In this document: positions 28,579 to 33,349 of the stretch, in pieces
Layout of the letters: each line of letters begins with the position of its first letter
How positions within the stretch are numbered: position 1 is the stretch's first letter
Virus record (IMG/VR): IMGVR_UViG_3300010373_001373
Coordinates: 1-33,349 of that record
Strand: one strand, 5' to 3'
Source of the DNA: a virus
DNA length: 33,349 nt
Translations under genes and position numbers: made by a program
The notes under the pieces: model-generated
The model's database searches: none
Seen by the model: only the letters and a program-made list of their open reading frames with translations
Told to the model about the DNA's origin: nothing

Positions 28579-28797
28579 CTAGGTGGCCTGCGCGGCGTGA
28601 ACCTTGGCCGCTGCAGCAGTCAGGTAATCGTCTAGCGATTGGCGAGACCACACGGTGATGCGCGGGCCCAGCTTGAATGGTTTGGGGAAGTCAGGCTCGT
28701 TCTTTGCCTTTAGCCAGAGCGTGGAAAGAGCGATGCCGAGCTTTTCGGCTGCTTGTGGCGGACGAAGCGCCTGGTCTTGTGAAGTCGCTGCAGACAT
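28579..28797 (-). CDS. AlpA-like helix-turn-helix regulator
   Basis: A 72-residue DNA-binding protein. The ATG at 28797 has AGGAA five bases upstream. The region LRPPQAAEKLGIALSTLWLKAKNEPDFPKPFKLGPRITVWSRQSLDDYL is the typical AlpA/MerR-like small HTH fold: a helix-turn-helix (AAEKLGIALSTLWLKA), a wing with P.P..LG.R...W....ld.yl. Such proteins act as prophage regulators or excisionases. Two sets of inverted repeats in the 150 bases upstream are obvious candidate binding or control sites. It is the first gene of the replication operon. Confidence 0.82.
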   Translation of the reverse strand: MSAATSQDQALRPPQAAEKLGIALSTLWLKAKNEPDFPKPFKLGPRITVWSRQSLDDYLTAAAAKVHAAQAT

Positions 28798-28824
28798 ATG
28801 GGTTCCTATTCAGGTTTGTCCATC

Positions 28825-28846
28825 GACATGCATCATTATGTATGTC
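28825..28846. promoter_or_regulatory. Inverted repeat in the AlpA leader, overlapping a -10-like site
   Basis: GACATGCAT-catt-ATGTATGTC is a near-perfect (8 of 9) 22-bp inverted repeat, with a further direct half GTATGTC at about 28848-28854. On the minus strand it covers CATAAT (28840-28835), the best -10-like box before the AlpA start. A weak -35 (TTAAGC) lies 18 bases upstream. Operator role is inferred. Confidence 0.45.
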
Positions 28847-28891
28847 GGTATGTCTGAAGCTTAAGCGAGGAAAAAAACAAAAAAAAGATTC

Positions 28892-28955
28892 GTGCTGGCA
28901 CAGTATGTACTGTGCCGCATAGTACTCACTATGCCAGCACAGTGCTTATTTTGCG
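28892..28955. promoter_or_regulatory. Nested inverted-repeat array (tandem operators or attenuator)
   Basis: A perfect inverted repeat GGCACAGTA-TG-TACTGTGCC (28897-28916) is followed by GCATAGT-ACTC-ACTATGC (28917-28934), which is aligned to it in all conserved positions (consensus GGCAYAGTAnnnACTRTGCC). A third degenerate copy is at 28936-28955 and reaches the stop of the upstream gene. An outer pair GTGCTGGCA (28892-28900) and TGCCAGCAC (28932-28940) encloses the first two. On the minus strand a T8-G-T7 tract follows five bases beyond (28886-28871). It could be repressor sites, or a switch between alternative hairpins and a terminator. Confidence 0.7.
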
Positions 28956-29743
28956 GCGCCTTTCCATTGAGTGCACCAGCGTTCGATCACATTCTGGTTT
29001 TCGAGGATTTCGAATTTTTCCAGCATGTCCTTGGCAAAGGCCGCCTGGCTCTTATAGCGGTTTTTGCGAGCGTTCTCATCGAGATCTTGCCACGATTCCC
29101 AAAGGACCTTGACCTCAGCTTTCGCCTTTTGCTTTGGGTCGTTCTTGTATCGCTCCAAGGCGGCCTGAGATGCGCTTTCGCTTCGGACCTTCTGCAAATT
29201 CTCGTCACCCGAAAGTATGGCCTGCGCATTCGTAAAATGCTCCATTGCCGATACCGCCAGCGCAATTCCGCCCCCTTCGAGCATGGCAATGATCGCATCC
29301 TCAATATCTATCAAGCAAAGAAAAAGAAAAAAAAAGAGGAAGACTTTGTCTGTTTCAGAATCCGAACGTTCTCTCGAAATTACCCACCCTATTTCGATAA
29401 GCTGCGAGTGCGAGAGATCACCGATGTCAATCGCCTCTGCGCTGCCATCGCTGCTCACAGTAATTTTCTTCGATGCGACCAAATCGGCAATTAATATCCT
29501 GAGTTGCTCAAGCCCGGTTACACTCGATTTGTAGGCTAGATCGAACTGCTCCTTATTCTCAAAATTTCCAAGAAGTTCGAACGCTTTTTTGCCGAGCCCC
29601 CAAAGGACCATTGCATCATAGCCATCGTTGGGCTTTCCCCAGGAGCTGAACATGGGTTTGCCGGCAGCATTTACGAAATGCTTCTGCCCTTCGGCAAAGC
29701 TGCGGAAGGGATGGTAAAACTGAAATGCCCCAATATTCCTCAT
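28946..29743 (-). CDS. Unknown protein with hydrophobic segment and C-terminal HTH-like module
   Basis: The ATG at 29743 overlaps the upstream stop as ATGA, giving 265 residues (MRNIGAFQFYHPFRSFAEGQ...). The first ~120 residues are soluble and unknown (YDAMVLWGLGKKAFELLGNF). Residues of about 131-165 contain a very hydrophobic run (KVFLFFFLFLCLIDIED) then AIIAMLEGGGIALAV. The C-terminal ~60 residues (KAEVKVLWESWQDLDENARK, YKSQAAFAKDMLEKFEILEN, VIERWCTQWK) closely match the end of the next gene's product and look like an HTH. The hydrophobic run is coded by a T-rich tract containing nine T in a row. The codon and base use of the pair seems more A/T-rich than the replication genes. Function unknown. 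Confidence 0.7.
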   Translation of the reverse strand: MRNIGAFQFYHPFRSFAEGQKHFVNAAGKPMFSSWGKPNDGYDAMVLWGLGKKAFELLGNFENKEQFDLAYKSSVTGLEQLRILIADLVASKKITVSSDGSAEAIDIGDLSHSQLIEIGWVISRERSDSETDKVFLFFFLFLCLIDIEDAIIAMLEGGGIALAVSAMEHFTNAQAILSGDENLQKVRSESASQAALERYKNDPKQKAKAEVKVLWESWQDLDENARKNRYKSQAAFAKDMLEKFEILENQNVIERWCTQWKGAAK

Positions 29744-30399
29744 GGTTTTTGGGCTCCATCTTTCTCCCACTCTCGGCACCAGCGTTCTATCACTGCTTGG
29801 TTACTTAGAGATTTAAATTCATCAAGCATTTTTCTGGCGAATGCGGCTTTGTAACGGGTTTGCCGAATTTCGGCGGAGAGCTCACCCCAACATGCCTTGA
29901 CGCCAATTTTAGCAATCCGTTCGGGAGTGCCTTCGTGCCTCTTGAGGGCCAGCTTCACTTGGCGAAGCGACGCCTCGTTGCGCACCGTCTTTTCAAGAAT
30001 TATGAGCAATGTCAGTGCGTCTATCGGATTATCGACAATGATCTCACCGAGGTCTGACACAGGAGAATTTTTCTTCGCAACATTCTTCGTTACAGCATCA
30101 AGAATAAGAGTCGCCTTCGAATTGGCCGCCGCAAACTTCAGTGCCGCTTGCCGAATCACCTCTAAATACGAGGCTGCAAGAACTTCTACAAATTGATCCT
30201 TGTTGGCATTTCTAGCTTTAGAAAAGGCGGCGGGCGATTCTCCGATCACGCTGCTTCGCCATTCGTTATTGATTTGGTGGTAGATTGGTCCCCTCTCGCG
30301 ACGTGCGAATTCGAGCAAGTCTGCAACCTTGTCTAATCCTTCCCATTCAGTATTCTTGGGTACTTGTAGCCTCTTGGTACCAGATTTCTTTGCAACCAT
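29740..30399 (-). CDS. Unknown protein with C-terminal HTH-like module
   Basis: I take the ATG at 30399 (MVAKKSGTKRLQVPKNTEWE) because GAGGGG lies seven bases upstream; 219 residues. Upstream Met codons have no ribosome-binding site. The body contains VADLLEFARRERGPIYHQIN, FVEVLAASYLEVIRQAALKF and LGEIIVDNPIDALTLLIILE. The C-terminus (KIGVKACWGELSAEIRQTRY, KAAFARKMLDEFKSLSNQAV, IERWCREWEKDG) parallels that of the adjacent 265-residue protein. The pattern aaFAr.ML..f..L.....IerWcreW has the layout of a helix-turn-helix, suggesting DNA binding. The two genes may have arisen by duplication of this end with different front parts. Confidence 0.7.
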   Translation of the reverse strand: MVAKKSGTKRLQVPKNTEWEGLDKVADLLEFARRERGPIYHQINNEWRSSVIGESPAAFSKARNANKDQFVEVLAASYLEVIRQAALKFAAANSKATLILDAVTKNVAKKNSPVSDLGEIIVDNPIDALTLLIILEKTVRNEASLRQVKLALKRHEGTPERIAKIGVKACWGELSAEIRQTRYKAAFARKMLDEFKSLSNQAVIERWCREWEKDGAQKP

Positions 30400-30501
30400 A
30401 AACGCGCCCCTCAGCGCCCCTGAAATTGGTAGCCGCACCCGCCTGGGGATCGGCAAGGTGCGGCGGTAAAGCGAATCGCTCTGCGAATCAGTCAGTGAAT
30501 C

Positions 30502-30735
30502 TTAATGCACATGACCAGACAGAATTTTGATCTGGCATGCCAAGTCAGCGCATGCCCACAGGTATTCTCCCTTGATCTCGTCGTTGTAGGTAATGAATGA
30601 TTCGAAACCAGTGCCTGTAATGGTAACGAGCATCGATGAGAGTTGTGCCGTCTTGCGGGTGAGGATGTCGACGACATCTTCCCCGTGCTCCAGTTGGGGC
30701 ACTTCTTTCCGCTTCAACTTAGCATTTTCACACAT
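30502..30735 (-). CDS. Small paralogous protein B, unknown
   Basis: A 77-residue protein with AGGAG before the ATG at 30735. The sequence LEHGEDVVDILTRKTAQLSSMLVTITGTGFESFI, then YLWACADLACQIKIL, is clearly related to the gene just upstream (30797-31048). Both keep an acidic-Gly start, ITRK/LTRK, a hydrophobic helix, TITxxGFExF and a second helix WACADLA/FACTDLA. Helical throughout. Their layout resembles small prophage proteins of the DUF3077/DUF6124 kind, but I am not certain. Tandem duplication is the simplest origin. Confidence 0.7.
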   Translation of the reverse strand: MCENAKLKRKEVPQLEHGEDVVDILTRKTAQLSSMLVTITGTGFESFITYNDEIKGEYLWACADLACQIKILSGHVH

Positions 30736-30796: not shown

Positions 30797-31048
30797 TTAT
30801 GCTCTCACCAAAGGCGTCACGTCTATGTCTTCGATATAGTCGGTGAGCAGACTGATTTGCCGGGCAAGATCGGTGCACGCGAACAGATAGTCCAGCTTCG
30901 TGCGCGCGTCGTTTGCTTCAAACGCTTCGAAACCATTGGAAGTGATGGTGGATAACAACGCGAGCAGTTGCTGCGACTTACGCGTAATTGCGTCGGCTGC
31001 CCCATCGCCATACTCCATATTTGGAACCTGCGAAGCCAGCATTTTCAT
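30797..31048 (-). CDS. Small paralogous protein A, unknown
   Basis: An 83-residue protein whose ATG overlaps the stop of the S24-like gene (ATGA, 31045-31048). The sequence MEYGDGAADAITRKSQQLLALLSTITSNGFEAFEAND and YLFACTDLARQISLLTDYIE aligns over nearly its whole length with the next gene, protein B. Two amphipathic helices joined by a short loop are expected. The operon position between the S24-like and HTH-like proteins points to a regulatory or anti-host accessory role, but nothing more can be said. Confidence 0.7.
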   Translation of the reverse strand: MKMLASQVPNMEYGDGAADAITRKSQQLLALLSTITSNGFEAFEANDARTKLDYLFACTDLARQISLLTDYIEDIDVTPLVRA

Positions 31049-31728
31049 GTTGACCTCCGCGCAGCACAGGCTTTCTTGTCGGTCGGCTGTTTCTTGTAGA
31101 TGTCCAGGATCCGGCCGACGATCTCGAAGTCCGCCGGCATCAGCTTGCCGTTCATCCGGAGCGGTACAGGTGGCTTTTCCAGGGTCTCGTAAAGCAGCCA
31201 GTTGTTCCGGGTCGGCTGCCGGAATCCGCGAATGGCGATGTGGGAACCATGGACGGCCACAAGGTAAAGGCCATCGTAGCTGAGTGCCGTTGCGGTGAAA
31301 TCCACGCTGATCAGGTCACCAATCTCGATCCATGGCGCGAACGATAATTGCGAAGCCTCAACTACGCAGTGCTGATCGTCCGCCGATGGTGCGGTGAAAG
31401 ACGTCAGGCCCAAGTAGCGCTCAACGGGCGATGGCAACCTCTTTTCCTTAAATCCCATCTCCCGCTTGAGCTCTACCGTCACTGCCGCTTTTTCACGGCG
31501 CAGCCTTTCCATTTTGAAGGCGCGCGCGACACACTTGGCGAAAGCCGAAATGTTGATCCATTCTTCCGCCAGGCTCGGCCGGCCTGCTCCATTGGCGGCT
31601 ATGGCTTTGCTCGTGGCCTCAAGCCGGATATTGCGCACTACCGATTCAACTGGGGTGATCTGTTCGGTCGGCAATTGGAGAAGGCACTTGCCCGTCGGGA
31701 GCGTAAGTAATATGCCTGAGAGCTTCAT
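31045..31728 (-). CDS. S24/LexA-like protein lacking the catalytic lysine
   Basis: I take the ATG at 31728 (MKLSGILLTLPTGKCLLQLP), which overlaps the preceding stop as ATGA; 227 residues. The C-terminal half aligns by eye with the S24 (LexA/UmuD/CI) peptidase fold. SFAPWIEIGDLISVD (S129) matches the S-M-x-P-x-I-x-x-G-D active-site region; YDGLYLVAVHGSHIAIRGFRQP sits where the lysine strand lies, and FEIVGRILDIY corresponds to the closing strand. The spacing from S129 to R167 is 38, close to the Ser-Lys spacing of LexA (37), but the residue is Arg instead of Lys. The first 100 residues show no clear HTH. A protease-dead regulator or sensor is my inference. Confidence 0.6.
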   Translation of the reverse strand: MKLSGILLTLPTGKCLLQLPTEQITPVESVVRNIRLEATSKAIAANGAGRPSLAEEWINISAFAKCVARAFKMERLRREKAAVTVELKREMGFKEKRLPSPVERYLGLTSFTAPSADDQHCVVEASQLSFAPWIEIGDLISVDFTATALSYDGLYLVAVHGSHIAIRGFRQPTRNNWLLYETLEKPPVPLRMNGKLMPADFEIVGRILDIYKKQPTDKKACAARRST

Positions 31729-31943
31729 TGCTGCCCCCTTGCCGCGTTCAGGGCGGCATTGACGAACATCGCTTCGCGCTCGGTGAGCTGCTGGGGTTGC
31801 TCGGCACTGGAAACCAGGGACCAATTTCTGCCTTGGCGTACAAGCTGTTTGGAGCCAAACAGGCGGATCGTGTCAACGCGTTGTGTAGTTGCTGCGGTAT
31901 CTCTGGAAGGGCCAGAGTTTGCTGATATTATGGCAATAGCCAT
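31725..31943 (-). CDS. Small phage protein, unknown
   Basis: A 72-residue protein with GGAG nine bases before the ATG at 31943, and an ATGA overlap with the S24-like gene. It begins MAIAIISANSGPSRDTAATT and has a basic middle (FGSKQLVRQGRNWSLVSSAE) and a helical end (LTEREAMFVNAALNAARGQQ). First gene after integrase. A small regulator is possible, but no motif decides. Confidence 0.55.
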   Translation of the reverse strand: MAIAIISANSGPSRDTAATTQRVDTIRLFGSKQLVRQGRNWSLVSSAEQPQQLTEREAMFVNAALNAARGQQ

Positions 31944-32116: not shown

Positions 32117-33349
32117 CTATGCCGCTTGGCTGAAGTTTCCCACTACCACTTTGCGCCCGTCATTGATCTGCGCATCCACAAAGTCGGCCCATAGCTGCAA
32201 TATCTTCCGCCGCTCTTCCGCATACTCAGCGCGGTTGTACACGCCCTTGATTCCCTTGATCGAGTGAGCCAGGGCCTTTTCGATTGCGTCGGATGAGTGG
32301 CCCATTTCGTGCAGATGCGTTGATGCTGTGCGCCGGAAGTCATGCAGCACGAAATGCTGCAGGTCCAGGTTCATGGCTCGAACCGCCTGATTCAGCGTCG
32401 ACTTGGCAATCGGCTTTTCGCCGAAGCTGCGGGTGGTCGGGAACACAAAGCGCTCGCTATACGAAAGCGTTCGCAGCTCCTTGAACATCTCTATGGCCTG
32501 GGCCGACAGATGGACCCAATGCTCCTTGTCCTTTTTCATGCGCGCGGCCGGAATACGCCAGATACCGGTGCCCAAATCCAATTCAGACCATTCCGCCTCG
32601 ATCAGTTCTGACTTGCGCACCATCGTAATCACCAAAAGGTGCAGCGCCAGCTTCAGCGGGCGCCCCATGTCCGACGCGTAAATGGCCCTGAGCATGGTCC
32701 CGATCTCATCGGGAGCCAGTACCCGTGTGCGGCTCTCCGGGGTCGCAATGAAGCGCGCAACCAGTTGCTGTGCCGGGTTGATCGTGGCGACCTGGCGAGA
32801 AATGGCGAACTCGTACATGCGCTTGATGATGTTGCGCACGGACAGCGCGGCCTGGGGCGAACCGCGCCCCTTGATGCGGTCGCAAATTGCCAACACGTCG
32901 CCGGCGTTCACATCGGTCACGCGCTTGTTGCCAATTGAAGGAAATATTTCCCTGGCCAGCACGCGTTTGGTTGTCGAGGCGTAGGCCGCGGACTTGCTGG
33001 CTATTTCCGATTGAAACCAGAATTCGGCAAAGGCCTTGAGCGTATCGTGGGATTTGATTGCCCCCCGATCTCGTTTGGCATCGGCAACCGGTGAAACGCC
33101 TGTAGCGACGATTTCGGCATACCGCATGGCGCGGGCGCGGGCGTCTTGAAGACTGATGGCCGGGTAGTCGCCAATGGTGACGAGAGGCTGCTGCTTGCCA
33201 TGGAGCGTGAAGCGATAACGCCAAATCTTGCTACCGGAAGCCATGACCTCCAGCACCAGGCCACCGCCATCGGCGATCAGGTAACGTTTGGACTTAGGCT
33301 TCAGCGACTTGATGCGGGTGTCGTTCAGCGGTACGGCGGCTTTGGGCAT
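32117..33349 (-). CDS. int: Site-specific integrase, P4-type tyrosine recombinase
   Basis: A 410-residue integrase whose ATG is the last codon of the window. The N-terminal ~90 residues (VPLNDTRIKSLKPKSKRYLI, GLVLEVMASGSKIWRYRF, VTIGDYPAISLQDARARAM) are the DUF4102 arm-binding domain of P4-like integrases. The core-binding part follows, and the catalytic domain has R245 (ITMVRKSELIEAEW), a lysine near MKKDKEHWV, H336-x-x-R339 (HDFRRTAST), H362 (KALAHS) and Y371 (VYNRAEY). All catalytic residues are present, so the enzyme should be active. It would integrate the phage into a host site, often a tRNA or tmRNA gene, that lies outside this window. Confidence 0.93.
   Translation of the reverse strand: MPKAAVPLNDTRIKSLKPKSKRYLIADGGGLVLEVMASGSKIWRYRFTLHGKQQPLVTIGDYPAISLQDARARAMRYAEIVATGVSPVADAKRDRGAIKSHDTLKAFAEFWFQSEIASKSAAYASTTKRVLAREIFPSIGNKRVTDVNAGDVLAICDRIKGRGSPQAALSVRNIIKRMYEFAISRQVATINPAQQLVARFIATPESRTRVLAPDEIGTMLRAIYASDMGRPLKLALHLLVITMVRKSELIEAEWSELDLGTGIWRIPAARMKKDKEHWVHLSAQAIEMFKELRTLSYSERFVFPTTRSFGEKPIAKSTLNQAVRAMNLDLQHFVLHDFRRTASTHLHEMGHSSDAIEKALAHSIKGIKGVYNRAEYAEERRKILQLWADFVDAQINDGRKVVVGNFSQAA

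Follow-up and report, generated by a model that had tools for sequence, protein, structure and literature searches.

Palindromes between the integrase-side genes and alpA of a tailed phage probably form an array that docks a missing regulator of prophage awakening

Introduction

Cooperative phage operator arrays, of which lambda OR/OL is the type, consist of tandem symmetric sites placed before a lytic-side gene. A cluster of palindromes in the virus record IMGVR_UViG_3300010373_001373, all 33,349 nucleotides of which were analysed and are here called the window, raises the question of whether it is an array of this kind, and if so which protein would bind it, or whether it works as RNA hairpins. 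Nearly all genes of the window lie on the minus strand. It is a tailed phage that encodes its own terminase, capsid and tail, with genes for terminase, portal, major head protein, tail sheath and baseplate. At its right end the minus-strand order is a P4-type tyrosine integrase (32117-33349), p259 (31045-31824), two small paralogues, p238 (29740-30456), p277 (28946-29779), the palindromes, an AlpA-like gene (28579-28797; PF05930, E=4.8e-6, above the cut-off), which is the first gene past them, p83 and a replication initiation protein. The palindromes thus sit between the integrase-side genes and the alpA and replication genes, at the boundary where the initial annotation had expected a switch.

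Several further features of the window can be recorded here. The two small proteins (30502-30735 and 30797-31048) are paralogue-like, sharing the pattern LEHG/MEYG..D..TRK..QL...L.TIT..GFE.F, and an A-rich run within p277 (29315-29337), which reads as Phe-rich FLFFFLFL on the minus strand, is a possible slippage-prone stretch. There is a tRNA-Met (CAT) gene within the phage (23408-23477, minus strand), and an Rfam scan of the window returned only tRNA above the gathering score.

In the Gram-negative phage satellite EcCICFT073, AlpA activates both its own promoter and the cycle of the element, whereas a global repressor is called unclear by the authors of that work (PMC6092414). Our literature search found no paper on AlpA with repeats of the kind described below.

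Results

The array in the window

The initial annotation had described two 20-bp palindromes with a 19-bp step, a third degenerate copy and an outer 9-bp pair, and all of these are present. The first palindrome, GGCACAGTATGTACTGTGCC (28897-28916), is a perfect fit to the proposed consensus GGCAYAGTAnnnACTRTGCC, and the second, CGCATAGTACTCACTATGCC (28916-28935), which starts 19 bp further on, fits it with one mismatch; the third copy (28935-28954) scores 21.4 bits as a complete unit when scanned with a motif derived from other loci, and the outer pair is formed by GTGCTGGCA (28892-28900) and TGCCAGCAC (28932-28940). The stop codon of p277 (28946-28948), which the annotation did not mention, falls within the third copy. 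With at most three mismatches allowed, the consensus pattern occurs only at this site in 33 kb, and 0/100 shuffles had as many matches.

Read on the minus strand, the site is an array of three 20-bp units (28898-28956) followed by a half-unit with T8-G-T7. Unit 1 (28937-28956, CCGCAAAATAAGCACTGTGC), which is the third copy just described, overlaps the p277 stop codon and scores 20.9-21.4 bits under a motif whose training excluded the window; unit 2 (28917-28936, TGGCATAGTGAGTACTATGC) scores 21.7-22.1 bits; and unit 3 (28898-28917, CGGCACAGTACATACTGTGC), reached by a 19-bp step from unit 2 and corresponding to the perfect palindrome at 28897-28916, scores about 17 bits. The terminal half-unit (28879-28897) reads CAGCACGAATCTTTTTTTT. 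The T8-G-T7 tract of the initial annotation is real and is here placed on the minus strand (28886-28871); it lies, therefore, downstream of p277 and upstream of alpA, where it is a possible terminator tail, and this tail of the array ends about 73 bp before the AlpA-like gene. By inspection, most arrays in the relatives described below also finish in a half-unit, often running into Ts, with tails such as CAGCACAGAAGTTTTTT, CAGCACTGAAGTTTT and TAGCACTCAGGTTTT.

Relatives and a motif learnt without the window

Relatives of the replication protein (80 loci) lacked the region, and no such palindrome was found upstream in the 28 closest that were checked. A direct search of viral contigs with p277 and the helicase gave no match, nor did a tblastn search of phage and plasmid records with the short C-terminal domain of p277. 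Relatives of AlpA pointed to Burkholderia and Paraburkholderia, where two loci have an integrase 71-72% identical to that of the window, and p277 matched whole genomes of that bacterial family through its C-terminal part only (11/398 genomes). Searching with a profile of this part brought in further loci, from the order, from the class and from viral contigs. Most relatives were reached from one centre, and those found belong mostly to Burkholderiaceae and relatives. In many of these loci the domain gene is preceded by an integrase related to that of the window and followed, after 70-180 nt, by an AlpA-like gene, and the order integrase, domain gene, alpA recurs among them. When ten of the downstream genes were compared with Pfam AlpA, eight passed the cut-off, one fell just below it and one matched other HTH families.

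A single motif is visible at the 3' ends of the relatives' domain genes. The consensus of the initial annotation, fixed beforehand, was searched for in related loci as that annotation had proposed, and it found 15/17 to 13/17 matches in six relatives (summed z=8.5), which beats nearly all shuffles and controls. Learnt de novo from 22 relatives with the window left out, the motif is approximately YRGCAnAGTGMGCACYnTGC, and it scores the three units of the window at about 17 to 22 bits each and anything elsewhere in the window at 13 bits or less; a scan of 815 kb from 80 unrelated loci gave zero scores of at least 18 bits. Two relatives provide independent support, having matches beyond the training stretch that both exceed 21 bits (L103 at -34, L096 at -28). 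Self-identity, a measure free of any motif, shows the periodicity directly, with z=11.6 at lag 20 and z=4.9 at lag 40 against -0.7 in the control. In a leave-one-out analysis, in which near relatives were left out together and the window was never in training, 24/24 domain loci exceeded the 99th percentile of 792 control scores, the window itself scoring 21.2; three divergent relatives (L105, L111 and L112) have weak arrays only.

A DNA site or an RNA hairpin

We laid out 33 units as two arms, giving 66 half-sites. The left and right half-sites have near-identical conservation profiles, and one G is invariant in 66/66. Position 5, which would lie within a stem, varies freely in each arm, and its two bases are complementary in 9/33 units, the level expected by chance. 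Mismatches of the G-T type (22) and the A-C type (25) are about equally frequent, with no G-U bias, so that neither strand shows signs of being selected for RNA pairing. Only some relatives have strong hairpins, and the T tract is missing in some. Taken together, the equal arms, the free position without co-variation, the absence of mismatch bias and the patchy hairpins favour a DNA site for a protein dimer. The array is one of repeated sites with two equivalent half-sites, as in an operator array, and it fits a DNA operator for a dimer rather than a selected RNA hairpin. The cooperative protein-binding site proposed by the initial annotation thus gains comparative support, as a putative array of symmetric half-sites, while its mutually exclusive RNA hairpins do not hold up as a selected feature.

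The chief competitor to an operator array is that the site is nothing but an intrinsic terminator closing the integrase-p277 operon, its hairpins and U tract halting transcription before alpA. The minus-strand RNA of 28868-28960 folds at -36.5 kcal/mol (z=-5.07, 0/200 shuffles as good), the outer 9-bp arms and the units forming a long imperfect hairpin (28892-28940) followed by U8GU7; the complement strand also folds far better than shuffles, as is expected of a palindrome. The site comes after the stop codon, as a hairpin and T tract of an intrinsic terminator would, several relatives also finish in TTTT, and the mean folding z is -1.9 in relatives against -0.07 in controls. A terminator has no need of conserved sequence, however, and the 20-bp unit is kept across highly diverged loci with a regular period and a DNA-type symmetry; the chance-level pairing of position 5, the missing G-U bias and the relatives without a strong hairpin or T tract also tell against it. 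Moreover, a strict terminator scan omits the site on the minus strand because the U tract begins 5 nt past the strong stem, instead of a T run within 0-2 nt of a G+C-rich stem, although weaker pairs reach into the T tract. We therefore regard termination as the sole function as unlikely. In this phage the hairpin and T tract may also end transcription of the integrase operon, and termination may go on alongside operator function.

The array goes with the domain gene

To see which gene the array accompanies, we surveyed 30 AlpA loci of the same bacterial family. In none of the 29 that lack the domain gene does an array precede alpA (a lone weak match in reverse orientation lies elsewhere in one of them), and the sole locus with the domain gene has the array. 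Four other loci without the gene (L086-L089) agree with this survey in having no array, even the two with integrases 71-72% identical to that of the window (L087 and L089). At a leave-one-out threshold of at least 14 bits, the array was found in 17/24 domain loci as against 0/33 AlpA loci without the domain gene (p=2.5e-9). A model search of 378 genomes gave three matches at E<1e-3, all beside domain genes; these were training members, so the result shows absence elsewhere and not rediscovery. Where two domain genes stand in a row, as in the window and in L109, the array comes after the last one. Since AlpA loci and L086-L089 lack the array when they lack the gene, the array tracks the domain gene rather than AlpA or the integrase, and this constant association with one protein gene is what an operator array of a dimeric protein would have.

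In the relatives the last unit ends 71-139 bp before the start of alpA (median 86 bp, MAD 6.5), many of these starts having been picked by eye, whereas the position of the first unit relative to the stop codon of the domain gene spreads more widely, from -34 to +56. The spacing to alpA is thus tighter, by a modest difference, which suggests that the array serves alpA. Simple occlusion of a promoter is not obvious, because the likely alpA promoter is downstream of the array, without clear overlap.

This near-constant distance could also be read as a sign that AlpA itself binds the array, as a multi-site operator of the RDF type for autoregulation or excision. AlpA does activate its own promoter in EcCICFT073 (PMC6092414), and Apl of phage 186 binds multi-site repeats one helical turn apart and regulates its own switch (PMC7498355), so that the Apl operators and our array are alike in being multi-site DNA arrays at a temperate phage switch. 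The Apl sites, though, are direct repeats every 10-11 bp bound by an excisionase (PMC7498355), a spacing that our array does not have; it consists of inverted half-sites with a period of 20 that go with another protein, and it does not accompany AlpA genes in general, being absent from the AlpA loci without the domain gene (0/29) and from L086-L089. Furthermore, another palindrome adjoins the start of alpA, in the window at 28824-28847 (CGACATGCATCATTATGTATGTCG), between the array and the gene, with a similar one at the same place in L087 and L088 (in L088, CGACATGCAC..TGCATGTGTCG). This second palindrome is a better candidate than the array for AlpA's own operator, and AlpA as the binder of the array seems to us improbable. 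The initial annotation had named AlpA and an S24-like protein among its candidate binders; the absence of the array from AlpA loci without the domain gene favours p277 and p238 over AlpA, and the S24 peptidase resemblance of p259 lies below the Pfam cut-off (E=0.028).

The C-terminal domain

The domain shared by these loci is about 65 residues long, with the consensus A..RH..DPKQ..K..V.ECW..WQ..P..Y.SKAAFARDML.K...L.S..VIE.WCR.WE. In p277 it occupies the conserved C-terminal part (residues ~200-277) behind a variable helical N-terminal part, and among relatives the parts ahead of it diverge, with only weakly similar helical stretches. The upstream gene p238, which overlaps the start of p277, ends in the same domain, and L109 repeats this tandem arrangement ahead of an alpA of the type found in the window. 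AlphaFold2 models the domain as small and helical with high confidence (pLDDT >90 over most of its length) and the N-terminal part of p277 poorly. The domain had no match in Pfam, NCBIfam, PHROGs or PDB sequences, and Foldseek comparison of the domain and of whole p277 with PDB folds and viral models gave no significant match and no recognised DNA-binding fold.

A variable N-terminal part joined to a constant C-terminal part, near an integrase and with a short DNA element in the locus, could also describe a prophage defence protein, in which case the array would be a self-immunity element such as aba is for BstA, a prophage protein whose locus contains its cognate short DNA element (PMC8585504). 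The likeness, proposed for p277, ends there: aba covers the 5' end of bstA and has CCCGCC end repeats, and BstA is of another protein family with an N-terminal KilA-N domain (PMC8585504), whereas the array has another sequence and lies at the 3' end of p277. Pfam gave no match of this kind for p277 or its family. PADLOC gave no match for p277, and the near-constant spacing to alpA suggests regulation; we consider a defence function very improbable, a little more so than binding by AlpA. Finally, palindromic repeats of such a kind occur in many genomes, but chance or a dispersed host repeat is refuted and has a negligible probability, given the shuffles (0/100), the scan of 815 kb of unrelated loci, the lag-20 signal, the leave-one-out result, the three matches of the palindrome pattern in viral contigs, all in unrelated contexts, and a search of 11 host genomes in which a stricter version of the motif turned up at just one place overall, next to a domain gene.

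Discussion

The reading that we favour, with some reserve, is that the palindromes are an operator array for the domain protein, whose dimers would sit side by side and control alpA. What stands of the initial annotation is a putative protein-binding array at a switch boundary, and not RNA hairpins as a selected feature. Each 20-bp unit would offer two inverted half-sites GCAnAGTGM, with successive units in phase along the helix. The protein ending in the domain (p277, perhaps p238 too) would bind the units side by side as a homodimer. The bound dimers would form a small nucleoprotein patch that lies between alpA and the integrase operon. This patch would control alpA, which is the first gene of the replication operon and of the activator and excision type, so that loss or release of the domain protein would allow alpA and replication to start. 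From the comparison of sequences we infer that the domain protein is the binder, acting as a dimer, and that it represses alpA rather than activating it; the integrase or a host protein could be the putative binder instead.

The array resembles lambda OR/OL in having tandem symmetric sites about two helical turns apart before a lytic-side gene. It differs in that the window is without a CI/Cro pair, and in that no HTH match is known for the proposed protein, whose gene lies upstream and runs in the same direction. Gram-negative PICIs with AlpA share the layout of integrase, regulator region, alpA and replication, with AlpA driving the cycle (PMC6092414); the window, unlike these satellites, encodes its own terminase, portal, major head protein, tail sheath and baseplate.

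More tentatively, and at somewhat less than even probability, p277 and its relatives may constitute a family of regulators, so far undescribed, in phages and islands, whose new DNA-binding domain would read GCAnAGTGM half-sites, and they may supply the missing repressor side of AlpA-type integrative elements, arranged as integrase, regulator, operator array, alpA and replication. The palindromes of the window are probably an array docking such a missing regulator, one that helps to decide when these prophages wake. The analysis points to a concrete protein family, whose domain is new to the family libraries searched, together with its putative DNA site, at the proposed repressor position of integrase-alpA elements, mostly in Burkholderiaceae and relatives, and the motif allows such elements to be found and tested.
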